Shown here: one piece after another, positions 5,037 to 35,035 of the stretch
Numbering within the stretch: the stretch's first letter is position 1
Layout of the letters: every line of letters begins with the position of its first letter
DNA from: Mogibacterium sp.
Lineage (GTDB): Bacteria; Bacillota; Clostridia; Peptostreptococcales; Anaerovoracaceae
NCBI GenBank assembly: GCA_017405845.1
Contig: JAFQZQ010000048.1
Span: forward strand, 62,001 to 126,000
DNA: 64,000 bases
Direction of reading: 5' to 3'
The notes under the pieces: model-generated
Told to the model about the DNA's origin: nothing
Databases searched by the model: none
Seen by the model: the letters and a program-made list of their open reading frames with translations, nothing else
Program-made: the position numbers and the translations under genes

Positions 5037-6563
5037 ATGTCTGAAAACAGCGAAGCAAAAGTGAAGAGGTCAGATAAGCGATCAGCTGATCCTGAGCGCA
5101 TACGCATGCACAGAAAGCGTGTGCTGTACAAACGGATCAGGTACGCTTTGTATGCTTTTGTTTTGGTGCTGGCGACGTTTACAGCTGCCGTGGTAATGGC
5201 GGTCAACCATTACAATATGTACCCGGGTAAGGTCGAGAGAGACTCGCTCAGCTCTCCGGGCAGGGGCTCCGACTATATTATCGTCGGCTGGGACGAGACG
5301 CACAGTACGGATATGTACAAGGTGTGGGTGAAGGAGCGCGATCTTGTAAAGAAGGACATTGAGAAGGCTAAAGCTGAAGCGGGTGACGAGGAGACTCCGG
5401 AGATAGTTCCGGACGAGACCTGGGATGAGTACGAGACGACTGTGCCTGAGATCACGGTCAAAGGCCTCGAGCCGGACACTTCGTATTCGTTCATAGTAAG
5501 AGCCGACAATGTTGAGAAAGAGGGCGTTGCTACGCAGCCCAGAAACTTCAAGACGAAAAGGTCGCAGAAGATAAAGGTCAGAAAGATGATCACCAAGTTC
5601 ACCTTCAGCAAGCCGTTCAAGCCAAAGGTGTCGGCTGAGACTGATGTCACTTACGAGACCGGTGACCCTAAAGTCGCTGTGGTGGATCCTGAAACTAATA
5701 AGATAAAAATCACCGGAGAGGGTGAAACCGAAATCACCATTACAGCCCGGTCTTCGCGTGAGTTCGAAGCCGCCAAAAGGACAGTAGAGCTGAAGGTGAT
5801 CGATGCGGATCCGGTAAGTGCCGGCGGAGCAACTCCGAATATCATTTACTATCTGGATTCCGACAACTGCGAGCTTGTAAAGAAAGTGACAGGTTCAGGC
5901 GGAGCTGTCGTACCACAAGGACTTGCGTATACAGGGGATAAATACATAATCTCATATGGCATGGGCAGCCCTAACAGGATAATAAGCTTTGATGTAGATG
6001 GTGACGGCAAATCTGTCAGCGTACCTTCGGTATCTTTGGGCCATCCGAACGGATTTACGTACGCCAATGAGAACGGCCGCTGCTATTGCGTAAAGGGATG
6101 GTCTTCAAAGGCGTATACCTACGAGCCTACATCTGACAGCTATGGCTCGGTCAACCTTTCGTATGGCTGCTCGGGCATAGGCTACGACCGAAAGAAGAAG
6201 CTGCTGTACACCTGCTCGCGTACGGCTATGGTGGCATACGATATCAGTGATGGTTACAGCGTAAAGTACAGATGCGGCGTGGTCAATCATAGCGGCACGG
6301 TTTATACGCAGGACTGCGGAGGACACGCGGGCATCCTGCTCAGATGCCTGTCCGGCGCCAGCAAACACGGCACCAACTACATCGATCTTTACGATATGAA
6401 GAATGGAAGGTATCTCGGAACACTCTCGTGCGATCTTTCAGAAGTCGAGAGCTGCATAGTCAACAAGGACGGATTCCTCGAGATACTGTCAAACAACTCG
6501 AGCAACGTGGACTATATCTGGAAAACAGATCTGAATATAGACACGCTCGGTGAAGGACTATAA
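5037..6563 (+). CDS. Membrane-anchored surface protein: Fn3-like, Ig-like and propeller-like C-terminal domain
   Basis: 508 residues, no cleavable signal. A Lys/Arg-rich cytoplasmic tail of about 33 residues is followed by one transmembrane helix (about 35-57). Residues about 65-175 look like a fibronectin III domain (WDETHSTDMYKVWV, VKGLEPDTSYSFIVRADN). Residues about 185-255 resemble a bacterial Ig-like (Big2) domain (GEGETEITITARSS). Residues about 265-508 form a beta-rich domain beginning D-x-x-NCELVKK and containing VPQGLAYTG, GHPNGFTY and SGIGYD. This domain recurs in the protein at 7754, so it is a lineage paralogue pair. The ligand is unknown. The ribosome site is weak. Confidence 0.65.
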   Translation: MSENSEAKVKRSDKRSADPERIRMHRKRVLYKRIRYALYAFVLVLATFTAAVVMAVNHYNMYPGKVERDSLSSPGRGSDYIIVGWDETHSTDMYKVWVKERDLVKKDIEKAKAEAGDEETPEIVPDETWDEYETTVPEITVKGLEPDTSYSFIVRADNVEKEGVATQPRNFKTKRSQKIKVRKMITKFTFSKPFKPKVSAETDVTYETGDPKVAVVDPETNKIKITGEGETEITITARSSREFEAAKRTVELKVIDADPVSAGGATPNIIYYLDSDNCELVKKVTGSGGAVVPQGLAYTGDKYIISYGMGSPNRIISFDVDGDGKSVSVPSVSLGHPNGFTYANENGRCYCVKGWSSKAYTYEPTSDSYGSVNLSYGCSGIGYDRKKKLLYTCSRTAMVAYDISDGYSVKYRCGVVNHSGTVYTQDCGGHAGILLRCLSGASKHGTNYIDLYDMKNGRYLGTLSCDLSEVESCIVNKDGFLEILSNNSSNVDYIWKTDLNIDTLGEGL

Positions 6564-6575
6564 GCACAATATAAT

Positions 6576-6729
6576 AAGCGCCATATAGATATAAAGAAGT
6601 GACTGAGCGTTAGCCGGCACTTAGCGATTGACGAGCAGCCTCAGCAGGCTGCGAAGTCAGAGCTTAGTACCGCTGCGTTAAGACGCGATAGGCGAGAGCC
6701 GGTCACTTCTGAATGTCTATATGGCGCTT
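6576..6729. repeat. Structured intergenic element, copy 1
   Basis: The element fills the gap between convergent genes. The outer stem AAGCGCCATATAGA (6576-6589) pairs with 6716-6729, and the inner stem GAAGTGAC (6596-6603) pairs with 6702-6709. The interior (6613-6678) contains GCCGGCACTTAGCGATTGAC and, after a small GCAGCCT/AGGCTGC hairpin, GTCAGAGCTTAGTACCGC. The same interior occurs reverse-complemented at 32944-32999 in another convergent gap. TTTTGTT after the right arm makes it a likely terminator for the plus-strand gene. Confidence 0.75.
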
Positions 6730-6745
6730 TTGTTATTATGAACTA

Positions 6746-7672
6746 CTATCCTTTACGTAGCTCTGCTATCTTCTGGCGTGCTGTTATTGCCAGATACAGG
6801 ATCTCGTTTGCAGGTGTAGGTATGCCGTGCTTCTTTCCCAGTCTTACGACCTCGCCGGCATACTCGTCGATCTCGATAGGTCTGCCTGCCTCGTAGTCCT
6901 GAAGCATCGACATCTTCTTGTCAGGCGGGAAGTTTATGAGCATCTCGATTATCTCATCACGGTCGTCTTCGGTCAGATTCACGCCCTCGGCCCATGCTAT
7001 CTCAAGGATCTCGTCCATCAGCATCTTCATCAGAGCCCTGACTTCTTCGACCTGTCCGAAGAATCCGCATTCTGCCTGTACCTCTACAGCTGTCTGGCTG
7101 GCGCCTGTGTTGAGCATCCATTTGCGCCACTTTGCCCTGAGCATGTCGTCATAGATTTTGACATTTATTCCGAGCTCTTTGAGTCTCTCATATGCTTCCA
7201 CCACTTCAGGTTCCGGATTGCGGTTGTCGGCATATCCTATCTGCATCTCACCGAGAGTTCTGAAGTAGACCCTGCGGCTCATGCGGTGAGCGTCTGTTCT
7301 GAGGACAACTCCATAGAAAGATCTGTTCTCAGGGAATTTCTCTCTGAGCATGGTCGTGGTTGTGATTCCGTTTTCTATCGGAAGAAGGATCGTATCCGGG
7401 TCGATCAGTGAGCGTATGTCTTCAACAACTGAATCCATGCTGTATGTCTTTGCGGCAAGGATCAGCAGGTCGATGTGGATGCCCTGCGAAGGATCGGAAT
7501 AGACCTTCGGATGGAAGACTTCGTTGTTTACAGAGATGCCCTTTGTGTTGAGACGCTCGGCGCGCTCGCCTTTAGCAAGCAGATAGACGTTCTCGGGATC
7601 TCTTTTATACATTTCATACATCAGTGCGCTGCCGACTGAGCCGGCGCCCAGGATGCCTACTGTTTTTATCAT
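6746..7672 (-). CDS. Ketopantoate reductase (ApbA/PanE) family oxidoreductase
   Basis: 308 residues. The N-terminal Rossmann motif is GILGAGSVGSALMYEMYKRD. The ApbA C-terminal helical domain includes AKWRKWMLNTGASQTA and a final GKKHGIPTPANEILYLAI segment, both typical of the family. Members reduce 2-dehydropantoate to pantoate with NADPH in coenzyme A synthesis, but many paralogues act on other 2-keto acids. There is no panB or panC nearby, so the specific reaction is open. Start at 7672 is chosen because GAGAGAGG precedes it and the Rossmann motif starts at once. Confidence 0.8.
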   Translation of the reverse strand: MIKTVGILGAGSVGSALMYEMYKRDPENVYLLAKGERAERLNTKGISVNNEVFHPKVYSDPSQGIHIDLLILAAKTYSMDSVVEDIRSLIDPDTILLPIENGITTTTMLREKFPENRSFYGVVLRTDAHRMSRRVYFRTLGEMQIGYADNRNPEPEVVEAYERLKELGINVKIYDDMLRAKWRKWMLNTGASQTAVEVQAECGFFGQVEEVRALMKMLMDEILEIAWAEGVNLTEDDRDEIIEMLINFPPDKKMSMLQDYEAGRPIEIDEYAGEVVRLGKKHGIPTPANEILYLAITARQKIAELRKG

Positions 7673-7753
7673 AAGTGGTACCTCTCTCAAAATAAATATG
7701 GTATCTGTCATAAGCATAACAGATACCATACTGCCTTTTCTATACTTTGAAAA

Positions 7754-9115
7754 CTATTTAAGCTCATTTACATTGAGCGGTGTTTTCCAGATGTAGTCGG
7801 TGTCGTTGCCCATGGTGTTGATGAGGAGCCTTACATATCCGTCATTGCCTACTACAGCACTCTCGATCTCACCCAGCTTGATCTTTATGGATCCGAGGTA
7901 GGCGTTATCTGCAGCCCTGTAGACGTCAAGGTAGTTGGTCGTCTTCTTGTTTGCTCCGCTGATGCCGTGGAATATGAAGCCTCCACCGGCGCCGCAGTCC
8001 TGCGTATAGTGGAAAATACCGTGGCTGCATCTTGTGAACAGCTTCTTGTGGGTGAAGGATCCGTCAGAGCTGTAAGCCCTTATACCTGTGCGCGAAGACG
8101 CGTATATGAGGTCTGTAGTCTTGTCATAGCCGACACCGGAGGATGAATAAGGTGTCTTTGATTTCCCGAACTTCTTGTTAACCGGGTTCCATGTGTAGAT
8201 CCTTTTTGTATTGCCCTTGAAGATATAGCATCTCTTTGTAGCCGGGTCCCATGTGATGCCGTTAGGGTGTCCAATACAGAACGAGAATTTTGACGAGCTG
8301 AGACGTTTACCCTTTGTTGAGTACGTCACGATCGCCTGTCCGGCTGCCATGCCGTACAGCACGTAATATTCGCTGCCCGTAAACGCAAGGCCCTGAGGGA
8401 CTTTTGCATTCTTGTATCCCTCGATAGAAAAGAGCTTCTTGCAGTTTGAAGTGTCGAATGTGTACACGATCCTGGCCTCACCGCCGCCCTGAGGATTCCT
8501 GAGCAGGGCTTTTGCGAGGTCGGACTTGCCCTCAAGCTGCTTTTTTGTCTTCGTGATGAACAGGGACTTGCCGAGCTTCACGTAGTCGCTGATGACATAT
8601 CCCGTATTGCCGTTTACCTTGACCCTGTACCAGCTCTCCTTACTTCCGGAGCGCTTCGCAGGCAGCTGAAGCTTCATCTGTGCGCCCATGCCCATGGTGC
8701 CCAGCACTTTGAATGTAGTAGCAGGGCCTTTCCTGTAGTTGAGAACATCGGTCGACACAGCTGATTTGCTGCCGTACTTGCTTATGTCTACGAGGTCGGC
8801 TCTGACATATCCGGTCTTGCTGCCTGCCGTTACCTTGTACCAGCGCTTCGTTGCCGCATTGCTGGTAGTTCCGGTGAAGACCTCCTGGTGGATTGTGAGC
8901 TTTGCGCCCTTGTTGAGGACTCCGATCGATGCCGAATCCGTGGTAGCCGACTTTCTGAGATTGACGTCATCATCGTTGATTTTTCCTGATGCCGTTAGTG
9001 ATGCCGCCTCAGCTGTGAAGGCAGGAGCGTTCAGCACAGGCAGGGCAGTGCATATCATTGCCGCTGCCAGCATGAGCGTGACTGCTTTTCTCATAATTGC
9101 GTTTTTCTTTTTCAT
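7754..9115 (-). CDS. Secreted protein with two SH3b domains and propeller-like C-terminal domain
   Basis: 453 residues. MKKKNAIMRK then a hydrophobic stretch ending near FTAEAAS is a signal peptide. Two bacterial SH3 domains follow (about 45-115: DDVNLRKSATTDS...GYVRADLVDI; about 118-185: VLNYRKGPATTF...GYVISDYVKL), the type that binds peptidoglycan. The C-terminal part, about 215-453, is the same domain as in the protein at 5037 (TFDTSNCKKL, VPQGLAFTG, GHPNGITW, SGVGYD). The start at 9115 is preferred over 9127 because AAGGATGGG is well spaced only for the former. Probably a wall-bound protein; enzymatic function unproven. Confidence 0.75.
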   Translation of the reverse strand: MKKKNAIMRKAVTLMLAAAMICTALPVLNAPAFTAEAASLTASGKINDDDVNLRKSATTDSASIGVLNKGAKLTIHQEVFTGTTSNAATKRWYKVTAGSKTGYVRADLVDISKYGSKSAVSTDVLNYRKGPATTFKVLGTMGMGAQMKLQLPAKRSGSKESWYRVKVNGNTGYVISDYVKLGKSLFITKTKKQLEGKSDLAKALLRNPQGGGEARIVYTFDTSNCKKLFSIEGYKNAKVPQGLAFTGSEYYVLYGMAAGQAIVTYSTKGKRLSSSKFSFCIGHPNGITWDPATKRCYIFKGNTKRIYTWNPVNKKFGKSKTPYSSSGVGYDKTTDLIYASSRTGIRAYSSDGSFTHKKLFTRCSHGIFHYTQDCGAGGGFIFHGISGANKKTTNYLDVYRAADNAYLGSIKIKLGEIESAVVGNDGYVRLLINTMGNDTDYIWKTPLNVNELK

Positions 9116-9150
9116 TTTTGATCCCATCCTTTTTAATCAGATGCGAACTG

Positions 9151-31080: not shown

Positions 31081-32886
31081 ATGTCCAAGCGAAAAGATAA
31101 TCATATAAGCATGATTGCTCAAATAAGTATTATCTTTATCCTCGGCGTAGCCATAATTGGTTTGCTGACCGGTTTGGTGTTGCATGCAACCGCTGTAGAA
31201 AACATAAAGACTGATTTTTCTGAGCGCTCGGAGGCGACAGCTGCGGACCTTGAGGGGTTTATCAAGCATTTCCCGGCACATGAATGGATGTTCACATACT
31301 GGTATGAAAACTATGACCGGCTTGAGATCGACTATGATGATGCCTACGCACCGGGTTCCGAGACAGCGCATAAATGTGCCTCGCTCGCGGAGCGTCATCC
31401 GGAGTTCATGCTGGAATACGCGACCGGAGCTGAAGTAAGAGCACTGCCTCCTGAAGATCAGAAGCTTTACGCGGAGATAATCTATTCGAAGCTTCTTTGC
31501 CGGCTTAATGAGAACATAAAGAGCGACGATATTGACAATGTCTTTTGCATAGCGACACAGAAGCCTTATGAAAAGCAGATGGTGATGTTCAGTGGCGCCA
31601 GAGGCGATCTTCTGCAGGGTCCCGAAAAAGCACAGGCCTATAATATAGGAGATGTGATCAATTCTACAGAGGAGCAAAAGGAAGCGTTGCATTATGCGTC
31701 GCAGCGCGATCCTGCTACGGCTTTCAACGAGGATGGCCAATATCTGGACTATTACTATGATATAGGCAGCGTAGATGGTAACGATCTGCTTATCGGCGTG
31801 ACGCGCAGCACGGCTATGATCGAATCCACTATCTACGGGCAGACGTTGAGACTGAGCCTTTTATCCATCTCGTTCCTGATAATCCTGGCCTTAGGATGCC
31901 TTGTAATGATGATGAGCGTTGTAGTGATGCCTCTGAGAAAGCTTCAGAAGACTATACGCTTTTATAAGGACACAAAGGACAGCAAAACTGTTCAGAAGAG
32001 ACTCCGTAAAATCAACTCGGATAACGAGATAGGGCAGCTGGCGGATGACATAGGCGAACTCGCCGAAGAGATGGATGCATACATGGCGCAGATCGAAAGC
32101 GTCACGTCGGAGAATACCCGTATCGCGACTGAACTTACCCTTGCAAGCCGCATTCAGGGAGCCATGCTGCCTGATAAAGCGCACAGATATCCTGACGCGA
32201 AGGAGTTCAACGTCTATGGCAGGATGTACGCTGCGAAAGCGGTCGGCGGAGATTACTACGATCACTTCCTTATAGACGACGACCATCTCTGCATGTACGT
32301 GGCGGATGTATCCGGCAAGGGTGTGCCTGCAGCGCTGTTCATGATGGCTTCGAGCATCATACTTAAGAACCACATCATGGCGGGCAAGTCACCTGCACAG
32401 GTGCTGACCGATATGAACGCAGATATCTGTGCAAAGAATCCTGAGGACATGTTTGTCACGGTATGGCTTGGTATTTTCGATCTGAAAACGGGCAAGCTGA
32501 CTGCGGCTAATGCCGGCCACGAATACCCGATCATCAAGGAGGCCGGCGGAAAATTCGAGATCGTAAAGGACAGGCACGGTTTAATGATCGGTGGCATGGA
32601 AGGTGCTGTATATAAGGAGTACGAAATAGACTTAAAACCTGGCGCAGCGCTGTTCATGTATACCGACGGACTTACGGAAGCGACCGACCCGGACAACAAA
32701 CTGTTCGGAATGGATCATGCACTCGAAGAGCTGAACAGAGATACAGGCAGAATGGCCGAAGATTATGTAAAGCAAATGAAGGAAGCTGTAAAGGAATTCG
32801 AAAGGGGCAGAGAGCCGTTCGATGACCTCACCATGCTATGCGTAATATACTGGGGACCCGAAGGACCGTCGTACTGGAATAAATAA
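31081..32886 (+). CDS. Membrane-bound SpoIIE/RsbU-type serine phosphatase
   Basis: 601 residues. One transmembrane helix at about 14-36, an extracytoplasmic sensor of about 220 residues, and a second helix near 260-283. A HAMP-like segment and coiled coil (about 285-355) are followed by a PP2C-type phosphatase domain: AVGGDYYDHFLIDDDHLCMYVADVSGKG and LFMYTDGLTEATD carry the metal-binding Asp residues. Such proteins dephosphorylate anti-anti-sigma factors or related STAS proteins in response to external signals. No STAS or anti-sigma kinase gene is adjacent. It begins 2 bases after the transglutaminase-like gene. Confidence 0.88.
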   Translation: MSKRKDNHISMIAQISIIFILGVAIIGLLTGLVLHATAVENIKTDFSERSEATAADLEGFIKHFPAHEWMFTYWYENYDRLEIDYDDAYAPGSETAHKCASLAERHPEFMLEYATGAEVRALPPEDQKLYAEIIYSKLLCRLNENIKSDDIDNVFCIATQKPYEKQMVMFSGARGDLLQGPEKAQAYNIGDVINSTEEQKEALHYASQRDPATAFNEDGQYLDYYYDIGSVDGNDLLIGVTRSTAMIESTIYGQTLRLSLLSISFLIILALGCLVMMMSVVVMPLRKLQKTIRFYKDTKDSKTVQKRLRKINSDNEIGQLADDIGELAEEMDAYMAQIESVTSENTRIATELTLASRIQGAMLPDKAHRYPDAKEFNVYGRMYAAKAVGGDYYDHFLIDDDHLCMYVADVSGKGVPAALFMMASSIILKNHIMAGKSPAQVLTDMNADICAKNPEDMFVTVWLGIFDLKTGKLTAANAGHEYPIIKEAGGKFEIVKDRHGLMIGGMEGAVYKEYEIDLKPGAALFMYTDGLTEATDPDNKLFGMDHALEELNRDTGRMAEDYVKQMKEAVKEFERGREPFDDLTMLCVIYWGPEGPSYWNK

Positions 32887-32894
32887 GCAATATA

Positions 32895-33040
32895 AAAGAG
32901 AGGATTCATATGCTCCGTCAGGCACGCTCTCGCTGACATTCGGACGCAGCGGTACTAAGCTCTGACTTCGCTGAAGCTCGTCAATCGCTAAGTGCCGGCG
33001 TCCTCGAGTCACCTGCCTGGAGTATATGAATCCTCTCTTT
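32895..33040. repeat. Structured intergenic element, copy 2 (inverted)
   Basis: The outer arms AAAGAGAGGATTCATAT (32895-32911) and 33024-33040 are perfectly complementary but unrelated in sequence to the arms of copy 1. The interior (32944-32999) is the reverse complement of the copy 1 core, with a shorter central hairpin (GCT-GA-AGC in place of a longer stem). Again it fills a gap between convergent genes and can act as a terminator for both. Confidence 0.75.
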
Positions 33041-33063: not shown

Positions 33064-34905
33064 TTATGCGCGCTTGTTGTCTTCTACGAAGCGCCTGATC
33101 TTCATGGATGTTGTCTTGTCGAAATCGCGCTCGCGGACTATGACGTGAGCGATCCTCTTGAATCTCGGCAGATCGTCATTGATCTTGTCGACCGCTGCTT
33201 CGATCAGCGCCTCAGCCTGCTCTGCAGTGTAGTCAGGTCCGAGCTTTCTCTCGAGCTCTTCCTTGTTGAGTCTGACTGTGGCGTGGATGCCGTTCCACTG
33301 CGAGTTAGGATCGAGCTCGCCGCCCCATACCATGCACTCTTCTACGATAGGAAGTGCGAGCAGATAACTCTCGAGCTCTTCCGGGAATACGTTCTTGCCG
33401 TTGCTGGCGATGATAACGTTCTTTTTACGGCCTGTGATGAACACGTATTTGTCGCGGTCGAGATAGCCGACGTCGCCTGTGTGGAACCAGCCCTCTTCAT
33501 CGAGTACGGCCTTCGTGTTCTCCGGGTCCTTGTAGTAACCCATCATTACCTGCGGTCCGCGGAAGCAGATCTCGCCGATGCCGTTGCTGTCAGGATCGAG
33601 GATCTTGCACTCTGTGAACGGCATGATGTGACCGGCAGATGAGTTCTTCATAAACTTACGCTTTGCCGGATTGAGCGCCACGATAGGCGAGCACTCCGAG
33701 AGACCGTAGCCCTGGATGGCGTTGAAGCCTATGTTGCAGAACGAATCGAGAATGGCTCCGTCGATCGGGGCTCCACCCGAGATGAGTGTGTGCAGTCTTC
33801 CGCCGAATACAGCCTCGATATCCTTGGTGACCTTCTTAGGTAGCTTCACCTTGAAGCGGCTTGCCTCGCGATCCATGATCTCGAAGACTCTCATCTGCTT
33901 TTCGCTCAGCTTGTCTGCGACCGAACGTCTTATCTTATTGTGGAAGTTCTCGATGATAGCAGGAACTGCCAGCATGATGGTCGGCTTCACCTCAAGGATG
34001 TCTTTGCGGATGTACTTGAGTCCGCGGCTGAACGCTACGGTTGCTCCGCTGTAGACGCATGAGAGGAATGTTGCCGTGCACTCATAGCAGTGATGCATCG
34101 GAAGCACTGAGAAGCATATGTCTTTAGGACGTGCTTCAAACATGGCCTGAACCAGTATCGTATCGAGCATTAGGTTGCGGTGTGAAAGCATTACGCCCTT
34201 CGAAACACCGGTAGTGCCCGATGTGAAGATGATGGATGCGAGGTCAGTGTTGACTACCTGAGCGTCGATGTAGCGGCGGTCGCCGTTCCATACCATATGG
34301 CGGCCTTTCTCGCGGAGCTTCTTCCACGAGATGAGTCCGGCTTCGACATCTTCGTCCTCTTCCATGTCGGCATTGATGACATAGCGGAGCTGGGTCTCGC
34401 CACTGGCTTTGATTCTCTTGAAGATCTCGTAGTATTTTTTGTTTACCGTGATGACAGCCTCGAGCTCACCCTTGATGGTCAGCTGCTGCAGCTCGCTCTC
34501 ATTGAGCTCTCTGTCGAGAGGGACCACGACTCCGACACCGCCGACGATGGCGAGATAGGATTCGCCCCACTCGGAGGAGTTGCGGCCGATCAGACCGATG
34601 TGCCTGTCTTCGAGTCCGAGCTCGAGAAGGCCGGTACCGATCGCGTTGACATCCTCAAGCGCCTGTCTGAAGCTGATCTCCCTGAACGGCTGGTTTGGCT
34701 TGTACTTCTGCATGAAGAGCGGAAGATCAGGGTGCTCCTGGGCACTGTAGTTGAGCATGTCCTTGAGGTCAGTCACTACATGCTTGTCTTTGAAGAGGTA
34801 GCGCTTGTCTTTCGACTTCTTGAGATCATTGAGCATCTGCTCGATGACCTCGCGTTCGCGCCTTTTGATATTTCTGTATTCAGAATCTGTATATTTTCTG
34901 CTCAT
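33064..34905 (-). CDS. Long-chain acyl-CoA synthetase (AMP-binding family)
   Basis: 613 residues. IIFTSGTTGVSKGVMLSHRN is the P-loop motif, YGLSECSPIVALNP the adenylate motif and GWFHTGDVGYLDRD the hinge region of ANL enzymes. ITGRKKNVIIASNGKNVFPEE holds the conserved C-terminal Lys/Gly residues. It activates a fatty or aryl acid to its CoA thioester with ATP. Long-chain specificity is inferred from length and the N-terminal layout. Start at 34905 avoids a low-complexity upstream extension. Divergent from hypB. Confidence 0.88.
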   Translation of the reverse strand: MSRKYTDSEYRNIKRREREVIEQMLNDLKKSKDKRYLFKDKHVVTDLKDMLNYSAQEHPDLPLFMQKYKPNQPFREISFRQALEDVNAIGTGLLELGLEDRHIGLIGRNSSEWGESYLAIVGGVGVVVPLDRELNESELQQLTIKGELEAVITVNKKYYEIFKRIKASGETQLRYVINADMEEDEDVEAGLISWKKLREKGRHMVWNGDRRYIDAQVVNTDLASIIFTSGTTGVSKGVMLSHRNLMLDTILVQAMFEARPKDICFSVLPMHHCYECTATFLSCVYSGATVAFSRGLKYIRKDILEVKPTIMLAVPAIIENFHNKIRRSVADKLSEKQMRVFEIMDREASRFKVKLPKKVTKDIEAVFGGRLHTLISGGAPIDGAILDSFCNIGFNAIQGYGLSECSPIVALNPAKRKFMKNSSAGHIMPFTECKILDPDSNGIGEICFRGPQVMMGYYKDPENTKAVLDEEGWFHTGDVGYLDRDKYVFITGRKKNVIIASNGKNVFPEELESYLLALPIVEECMVWGGELDPNSQWNGIHATVRLNKEELERKLGPDYTAEQAEALIEAAVDKINDDLPRFKRIAHVIVRERDFDKTTSMKIRRFVEDNKRA

Positions 34906-35035
34906 AATGTACCCATAACCCGTGGCGGGACTTGCCCGTTCCGTTTTGTTTCTATATAATTCGTGAAGTAACAAATTTAGATTATCTACTATATTTACAT
35001 CGCAAAATTATATCACAGGAGATAGAAACAAAGGA

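Follow-up and report, generated by a model that had tools for sequence, protein, structure and literature searches.

A structured mobile repeat that appears to enter intergenic stem-loops in Mogibacterium and other Bacillota

The window examined here, a stretch of 64,000 nucleotides from a Mogibacterium sp. contig (JAFQZQ010000048.1), carries a structure that we read, with a probability of about 75%, as a copy of a small non-autonomous mobile element inserted into intergenic stem-loops, often terminator loops. The evidence is good that it is a structured mobile repeat, inserted where it lies and present in several copies, and that terminator loops are targeted at some loci, although not in general; insertion at stem-loops was shown at four loci of the genome itself. 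We class it as a new family, of structured mobile repeats that target stem-loops. The element would spread within a genome and between species by entering stem-loops between genes, in many cases at the loop of a Rho-independent terminator, and the window copy's outer arms are best explained as a terminator stem that was already present. Because the arms of different copies have no common sequence, hairpin shape rather than sequence would be what is recognised, and mobilisation would presumably occur in trans, by an enzyme encoded elsewhere.

Anatomy and covariation of the element

The window copy folds into a single long branched hairpin of −85 kcal/mol (z = −9.9 against 200 dinucleotide shuffles) and is enclosed by convergent genes at 5037-6563 (+) and 6746-7729 (−), its first base lying 12 nt past one stop codon and its last base 16 nt before the other. 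The fold and the flanking reading frames thus confirm what an earlier note on this DNA had described, a structured element between convergent genes. By eye, the genes at 5037-6563 and 7754-9127 encode paralogous secreted-type proteins with alike C-terminal halves, either side of a reductase gene, and the second paralogue seems to have SH3-like repeats.

The second copy lies likewise between convergent genes (31081-32886, +, and 33064-34974, −), with its core at 32944-32999 and its outer arms at 32898-32916 and 33019-33037. The note had matched the two cores in reverse complement, which BLAST bears out at 83% identity, and had seen outer stems that differ by locus and are each self-complementary, as indeed they are (GCGCCATATAGA/TCTATATGGCGC at copy 1, GAGAGGATTCATATGCTCC/GGAGTATATGAATCCTCTC at copy 2). 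The core that it delimited is conserved, but the conserved part is wider, adding a side hairpin with a GNRA-type loop and a flanking helix (Table 1).

Table 1. Features of the two copies, in positions of the window
Feature	Position	Strand	Evidence
Whole structure, copy 1 (element in locus-specific outer arms)	6576..6729	.	Fold; convergent ORFs
Left outer arm GCGCCATATAGA, corresponds to native terminator stem	6578..6589	+	Related stems in G017 and G466, element-free site
Variable terminal helix, 5′ side (AGAAGTGAC)	6595..6603	+	Pairs with 6702-6710; elsewhere variable yet paired
Conserved core hairpin GCCGGCACTTAGCGATTGAC...GTCAGAGCTTAGTACCGC, with an apical hairpin that varies in length	6613..6678	+	Covariation
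Conserved side hairpin GGCGAGAGCC, GNRA-type loop	6691..6700	+	Kept in nearly all copies; its 2 modelled pairs covary
Variable terminal helix, 3′ side (GTCACTTCT)	6702..6710	+	Pairs with 6595-6603
Right outer arm TCTATATGGCGC	6716..6727	+	Perfect complement of 6578-6589; same G017/G466 comparison
Copy 2, same family	32898..33037	-	BLAST E 1e-13; R1 104 bits

Across the family, the element is a non-coding imperfect palindrome of ~110-150 bp with a fixed core hairpin and the GNRA-type side hairpin. Outermost are the locus-specific arms, then a small interior loop and a variable terminal helix of ~4-9 pairs; next come the side hairpin on the 3′ side (GCGAGAGC) and a variable helix, and innermost the core (consensus GGYAC-UUAGCGAYUGRC ... 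GWCAGAGCUUA-GUACC), capped by an apical hairpin whose length varies. Among 110 distinct sequences, 17 of the 20 modelled pairs changed on both sides in a compensatory manner, and 98.1% of pair cells are paired in an alignment that, being model-fitted, favours structure somewhat, with slid controls dropping to 13-48%; none of 500 shuffles matched the observed values. The covariation bears out the selection for structure that the note had suspected from a central hairpin that alters its length yet stays paired, which is true of both window copies and of the whole family.

We found no description of the family in the literature searched, and it has no Rfam entry: Rfam 15 gave no match at the gathering threshold in the window, and at a relaxed E-value nothing meaningful at the window site and nine loci. 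Phage and plasmid sequences held no match to the element, and viral contigs one exact 16-base match. A longer autonomous form, sought at all loci as separated core halves, was not found; the search yielded only interruptions by a second repeat, deletion remnants and truncations, with no open reading frame between the halves. The second hairpin repeat in question (ends like TATCGGAGGAGC...GCATTAT) is repeatedly inserted at almost one and the same point near the TTAGCG of the core, in both orientations (L038, L085, L120, L121, L132 and L143), and at another point in the 3′ part of the element at L026, L108 and L126.

Copies, distribution and placement

The earlier note had staked its reading on further copies and conserved base pairing, and both were found: beside the strong covariation, a genome-wide search recovered nine copies by the covariance model R1 at E <= 1e-3, against five by BLAST. 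The nine lie at C27:94910, C27:68586, C19:23596, C37:5981, C41:75007, C41:80297, C33:42241, C7:125715 and C8:36677. Three own copies (L213, L214 and L215) have a recent core variant in common; one of them has an outer part unlike that of the other two, so cores appear to have been exchanged between copies.

Within the genus, 44 of 47 sampled genomes carry between 1 and 18 copies each (R1 model). Across the phylum, copies occur in 8 of 398 genomes, our own included, representing 6 of 267 genera and four families (f1, f15, f116 and f50); beyond its own genus, the element is therefore patchy, with relatives in five more genera, which belong to three further families. Judging by GenBank titles, matching contigs are mostly rumen and gut metagenome-assembled genomes (MAGs), under the names Mogibacterium sp., Candidatus Crickella, Clostridia, Bacillota and Selenomonadaceae.

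Copies favour convergent gaps, a preference that the earlier note had proposed to check: 38 of 129 copies lie in such gaps, versus 85 of 537 background pairs (odds ratio 2.2, p = 0.0006, with simple ORF calling). In co-directional gaps the core lies 37 times in sense and 35 times in antisense (p = 0.9), and at L012 it is inverted relative to L004/L017 within identical arms. Nested copies (L157) and tandem arrays (L033; G254, with an 87-bp unit) also occur, and G395 has three near-identical core copies directly 3′ of terminator-like hairpins, which supports the favoured reading from a second lineage. Two further observations concern neighbouring sequence. In G395 (L161, right of centre), a core copy stands, by eye, just upstream of an FMN-riboswitch-like sequence, and in G305 (L179, 1795-2102) a 107-bp tandem repeat leads straight into an element copy with which it has the left arm sequence in common.

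Filled and empty sites

The evidence for terminators comes from four hand-checked loci of the genome itself; automatic terminator calling in empty sites proved too lenient, so only these were counted. At the window site, where the downstream gene is present in 19 genomes of the genus, the element is found in our genome, in G003 and in G002 (cut by a contig end), while G017, G466, G004, G026, G024, G021 and others are empty and have plain terminators. The stems of those in G017 (GAGCCATACAGA-CAAA-TCTGTATGGCTC) and G466 (GCGCCATATATGC...GCACATATGGCGC) correspond to the outer arms of the window copy. Native stems at this site turn over completely between species, and such variation explains the locus-specific look of the arms. 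At a cysK-like locus, terminators of the type GCGGCTGTC-TTTAA-GACAGCCGC occur in G462, G014 and G026 and a different plain terminator in G004; the element is present in our genome, G017 and G024, with a half-deleted core in G009 and as an inverted remnant in G006. All five have the arms GCGGCTGTAAAAGTC/GACTTTTACAGCCGC, with one compensated pair in G009. At these two sites the comparison does not separate gain from loss.

The remaining loci are more complex. At the L005 locus, five species have a terminator of the type AAGAGCCCGG...CCGGGCTCTT, and only our genome has the element, in arms unlike the conserved native stem; by parsimony this is a gain accompanied by loss of the native stem, which was replaced or rebuilt. 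At a glnS-like locus, G024, G017 and G009 have plain terminators, G006 and probably G026 have remnants, and our genome has the element; here the native hairpin seems to recur in full in each of the two arms, of which the right is the exact reverse complement of the left. Target duplication is suggested there and in one subfamily. The filled/empty pairs compared were not closely related (>95%), and they leave the precise junctions, and whether the target was duplicated, undefined. Also in G026, tandem repeats of ~70 bp (GACTTCCGTCCC...GGGACGGAAGTTTTACTCCCTGT) follow an acyl-CoA synthetase gene (L275).

Not every target is a terminator. Several sites lie inside operons, where the empty relative has a small UUCG hairpin and no terminator (rpsN-rpsH, L100) or no hairpin (secY-adk, L141), and the empty relative of the L213 site (L065) has no hairpin either; a pre-existing stem-loop is therefore not demonstrated at L141 and L065. 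Only ~20% of copies, versus ~9% of control flanks, have a tract rich in A or T immediately at the arm ends. Of the two origins that the earlier note had considered, a mobile repeat targeting terminator hairpins or a bidirectional terminator module, the latter is not supported. The former stands as to mobility, given filled and empty sites, patchy multi-copy spread, both orientations and inversion between identical arms; as to terminators, it holds at some loci but not at several sites inside operons.

Related systems and candidate movers

The nearest analogues, all compared by description, are YPAL and, for targeting, IS1272. YPAL (RU-2) of Yersinia is a ~168 bp palindromic, intergenic repeat, not A+T-rich, with internal inverted repeats, whose mobility was seen from filled and empty sites and whose mode of movement was not established (PMC2229807). 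Like the present family, it is intergenic and palindromic, is of similar size and not A+T-rich, contains inverted repeats, has filled and empty sites and has targets spanning or adjoining dyad symmetry. YPAL differs in its Yersinia host and in target duplications of 3-26 bp, which are not fixed in our family; our element is enclosed by arms, and its core covaries across several Bacillota families. IS1272, of the IS1182 family, targets stem-loops, for which stem-loop replacement, stem-loop duplication or loop duplication has been modelled (PMC5678879). It recognises stem-loops without common sequence, as our family would, but it encodes a transposase of its own and ends in 16-bp terminal inverted repeats that are constant, whereas our family has neither constant ends nor a gene. 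REP/REPIN sequences are small palindromic intergenic repeats that insertion sequences target (PMC3116915, PMC1525189); they resemble our family in these respects and give precedent for a hairpin as an insertion target, but differ in size, and a Y1 transposase was not found in most carriers of our family. Among the structured interspersed repeats of pneumococcus (BOX, RUP and SPRITE), SPRITE lies near gene ends and is terminator-like (PMC3049150); it is itself the terminator-like unit, with AAAA/TTTT ends, whereas our element sits inside existing locus-specific hairpins. Judged as an IS1182-type MITE, the family has a stem-loop target clearly at four own loci, but not at some operon sites. In the wide sense of a MITE-like small non-autonomous repeat, it is non-coding and multi-copy and has filled and empty sites.

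No general mover emerged from the candidates searched. The Y1 transposase (PF01797) is present in our genome, but the search of 18 genomes did not find it in 13, of which 11 are carriers (G254, G279, G395, G420, G281, G305, G003, G023, G009, G030 and G012). Reverse transcriptase (RVT_1) was not found in our genome, G003, G023, G009, G030 or G395, and the IS1182-type DDE transposase, searched as PF13751, was found in only 2 of 15 carriers. Each being missing from many carriers, all three were rejected as the general mover. Loci with paired copies in f15 genomes hold ordinary genes, with no transposase recognised. MAGs, as most carriers are, frequently lose transposase genes, but completeness is given as 100% for G201, G281 and G305.

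Alternative explanations

The arms pair in cis: in a duplex test the median was −37 kcal/mol, compared with −19 when arms were swapped from other copies, and 105 of 157 arm pairs outdo all 60 swapped partners. It is possible, though less likely than not, that they are created at insertion, by inverted target duplication or stem-loop replacement as proposed for IS1272 and YPAL—a variant of the mobile reading and not exclusive of it. The whole-hairpin arms at the glnS-like locus, the replaced stem at L005 and the arms at sites whose empty relatives have no hairpin point this way, as do recent same-genome copies (L037, L040, L054, L093 and L101) that have element ends in common but not arms. Yet the arms of those same copies are imperfect, with interior loops, those at the window and cysK-like sites match up with the stem that empty relatives have natively, and native terminator stems also turn over completely between species; arms in general showed no excess of self-contained hairpins, in a test whose windows were poorly placed. 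We consider it improbable, by comparison, that the structure is a vertically inherited structured RNA or a bidirectional terminator acting in cis where genes end, with arms evolving by compensatory change. Strong core covariation and the convergent-gap excess would fit this, as would the many compensatory changes in orthologous arm pairs (96, with 44 wobble and 165 broken), a count in which some orthologous pairs may be independent insertions. It sits poorly with orthologous sites that hold plain terminators instead, with orientation flips and the lack of strand bias relative to genes, and with insertion into ribosomal-protein operons and a spread confined to so few genera.

Assuming a mobile element, the means of movement can be weighed similarly. 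If the family were of the REP/REPIN type, with a Y1 (RAYT) transposase as its mover, this would account for the palindromic, intergenic character, for the tandem arrays in G254, which resemble BIMEs, and for the Y1 transposase of our genome; as no Y1 domain was found in 11 carriers, and REPs, at 20-40 bp, are much shorter than our element, we regard it as very improbable. As little credence is due to a remnant or satellite of a retroelement, be it a group II intron or another reverse-transcriptase-dependent RNA. Group IIC introns insert next to terminators, a preference that speaks for such an origin together with the RNA-like covariation of the core, but our genome and five other carriers yielded no reverse transcriptase, and no Rfam intron matched. 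More speculative than likely, the mobility may be directed by hairpin shape with no dedicated transposase or reverse transcriptase, for example if the replication or repair machinery of the host acts on hairpins that have been extruded, in which case the conserved fold would be the mobility signal.

Implications

Under the favoured reading, of a mobile repeat entering stem-loops, the arms seem often still to resemble a working terminator stem. They are complementary in most orthologous copies, so the interrupted hairpin probably still terminates, which would make insertion nearly neutral to the host. With 164 distinct copies in our collection, the family offers a well-populated natural set in which an element, its covarying fold preserved, lies time and again inside hairpins between genes, many of them terminators. 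This makes it testable which enzyme reads hairpin shape, and whether insertions preserve termination. With a covariance model for the family, many intergenic structures in Firmicutes of the rumen and gut could also be named when genomes are annotated.
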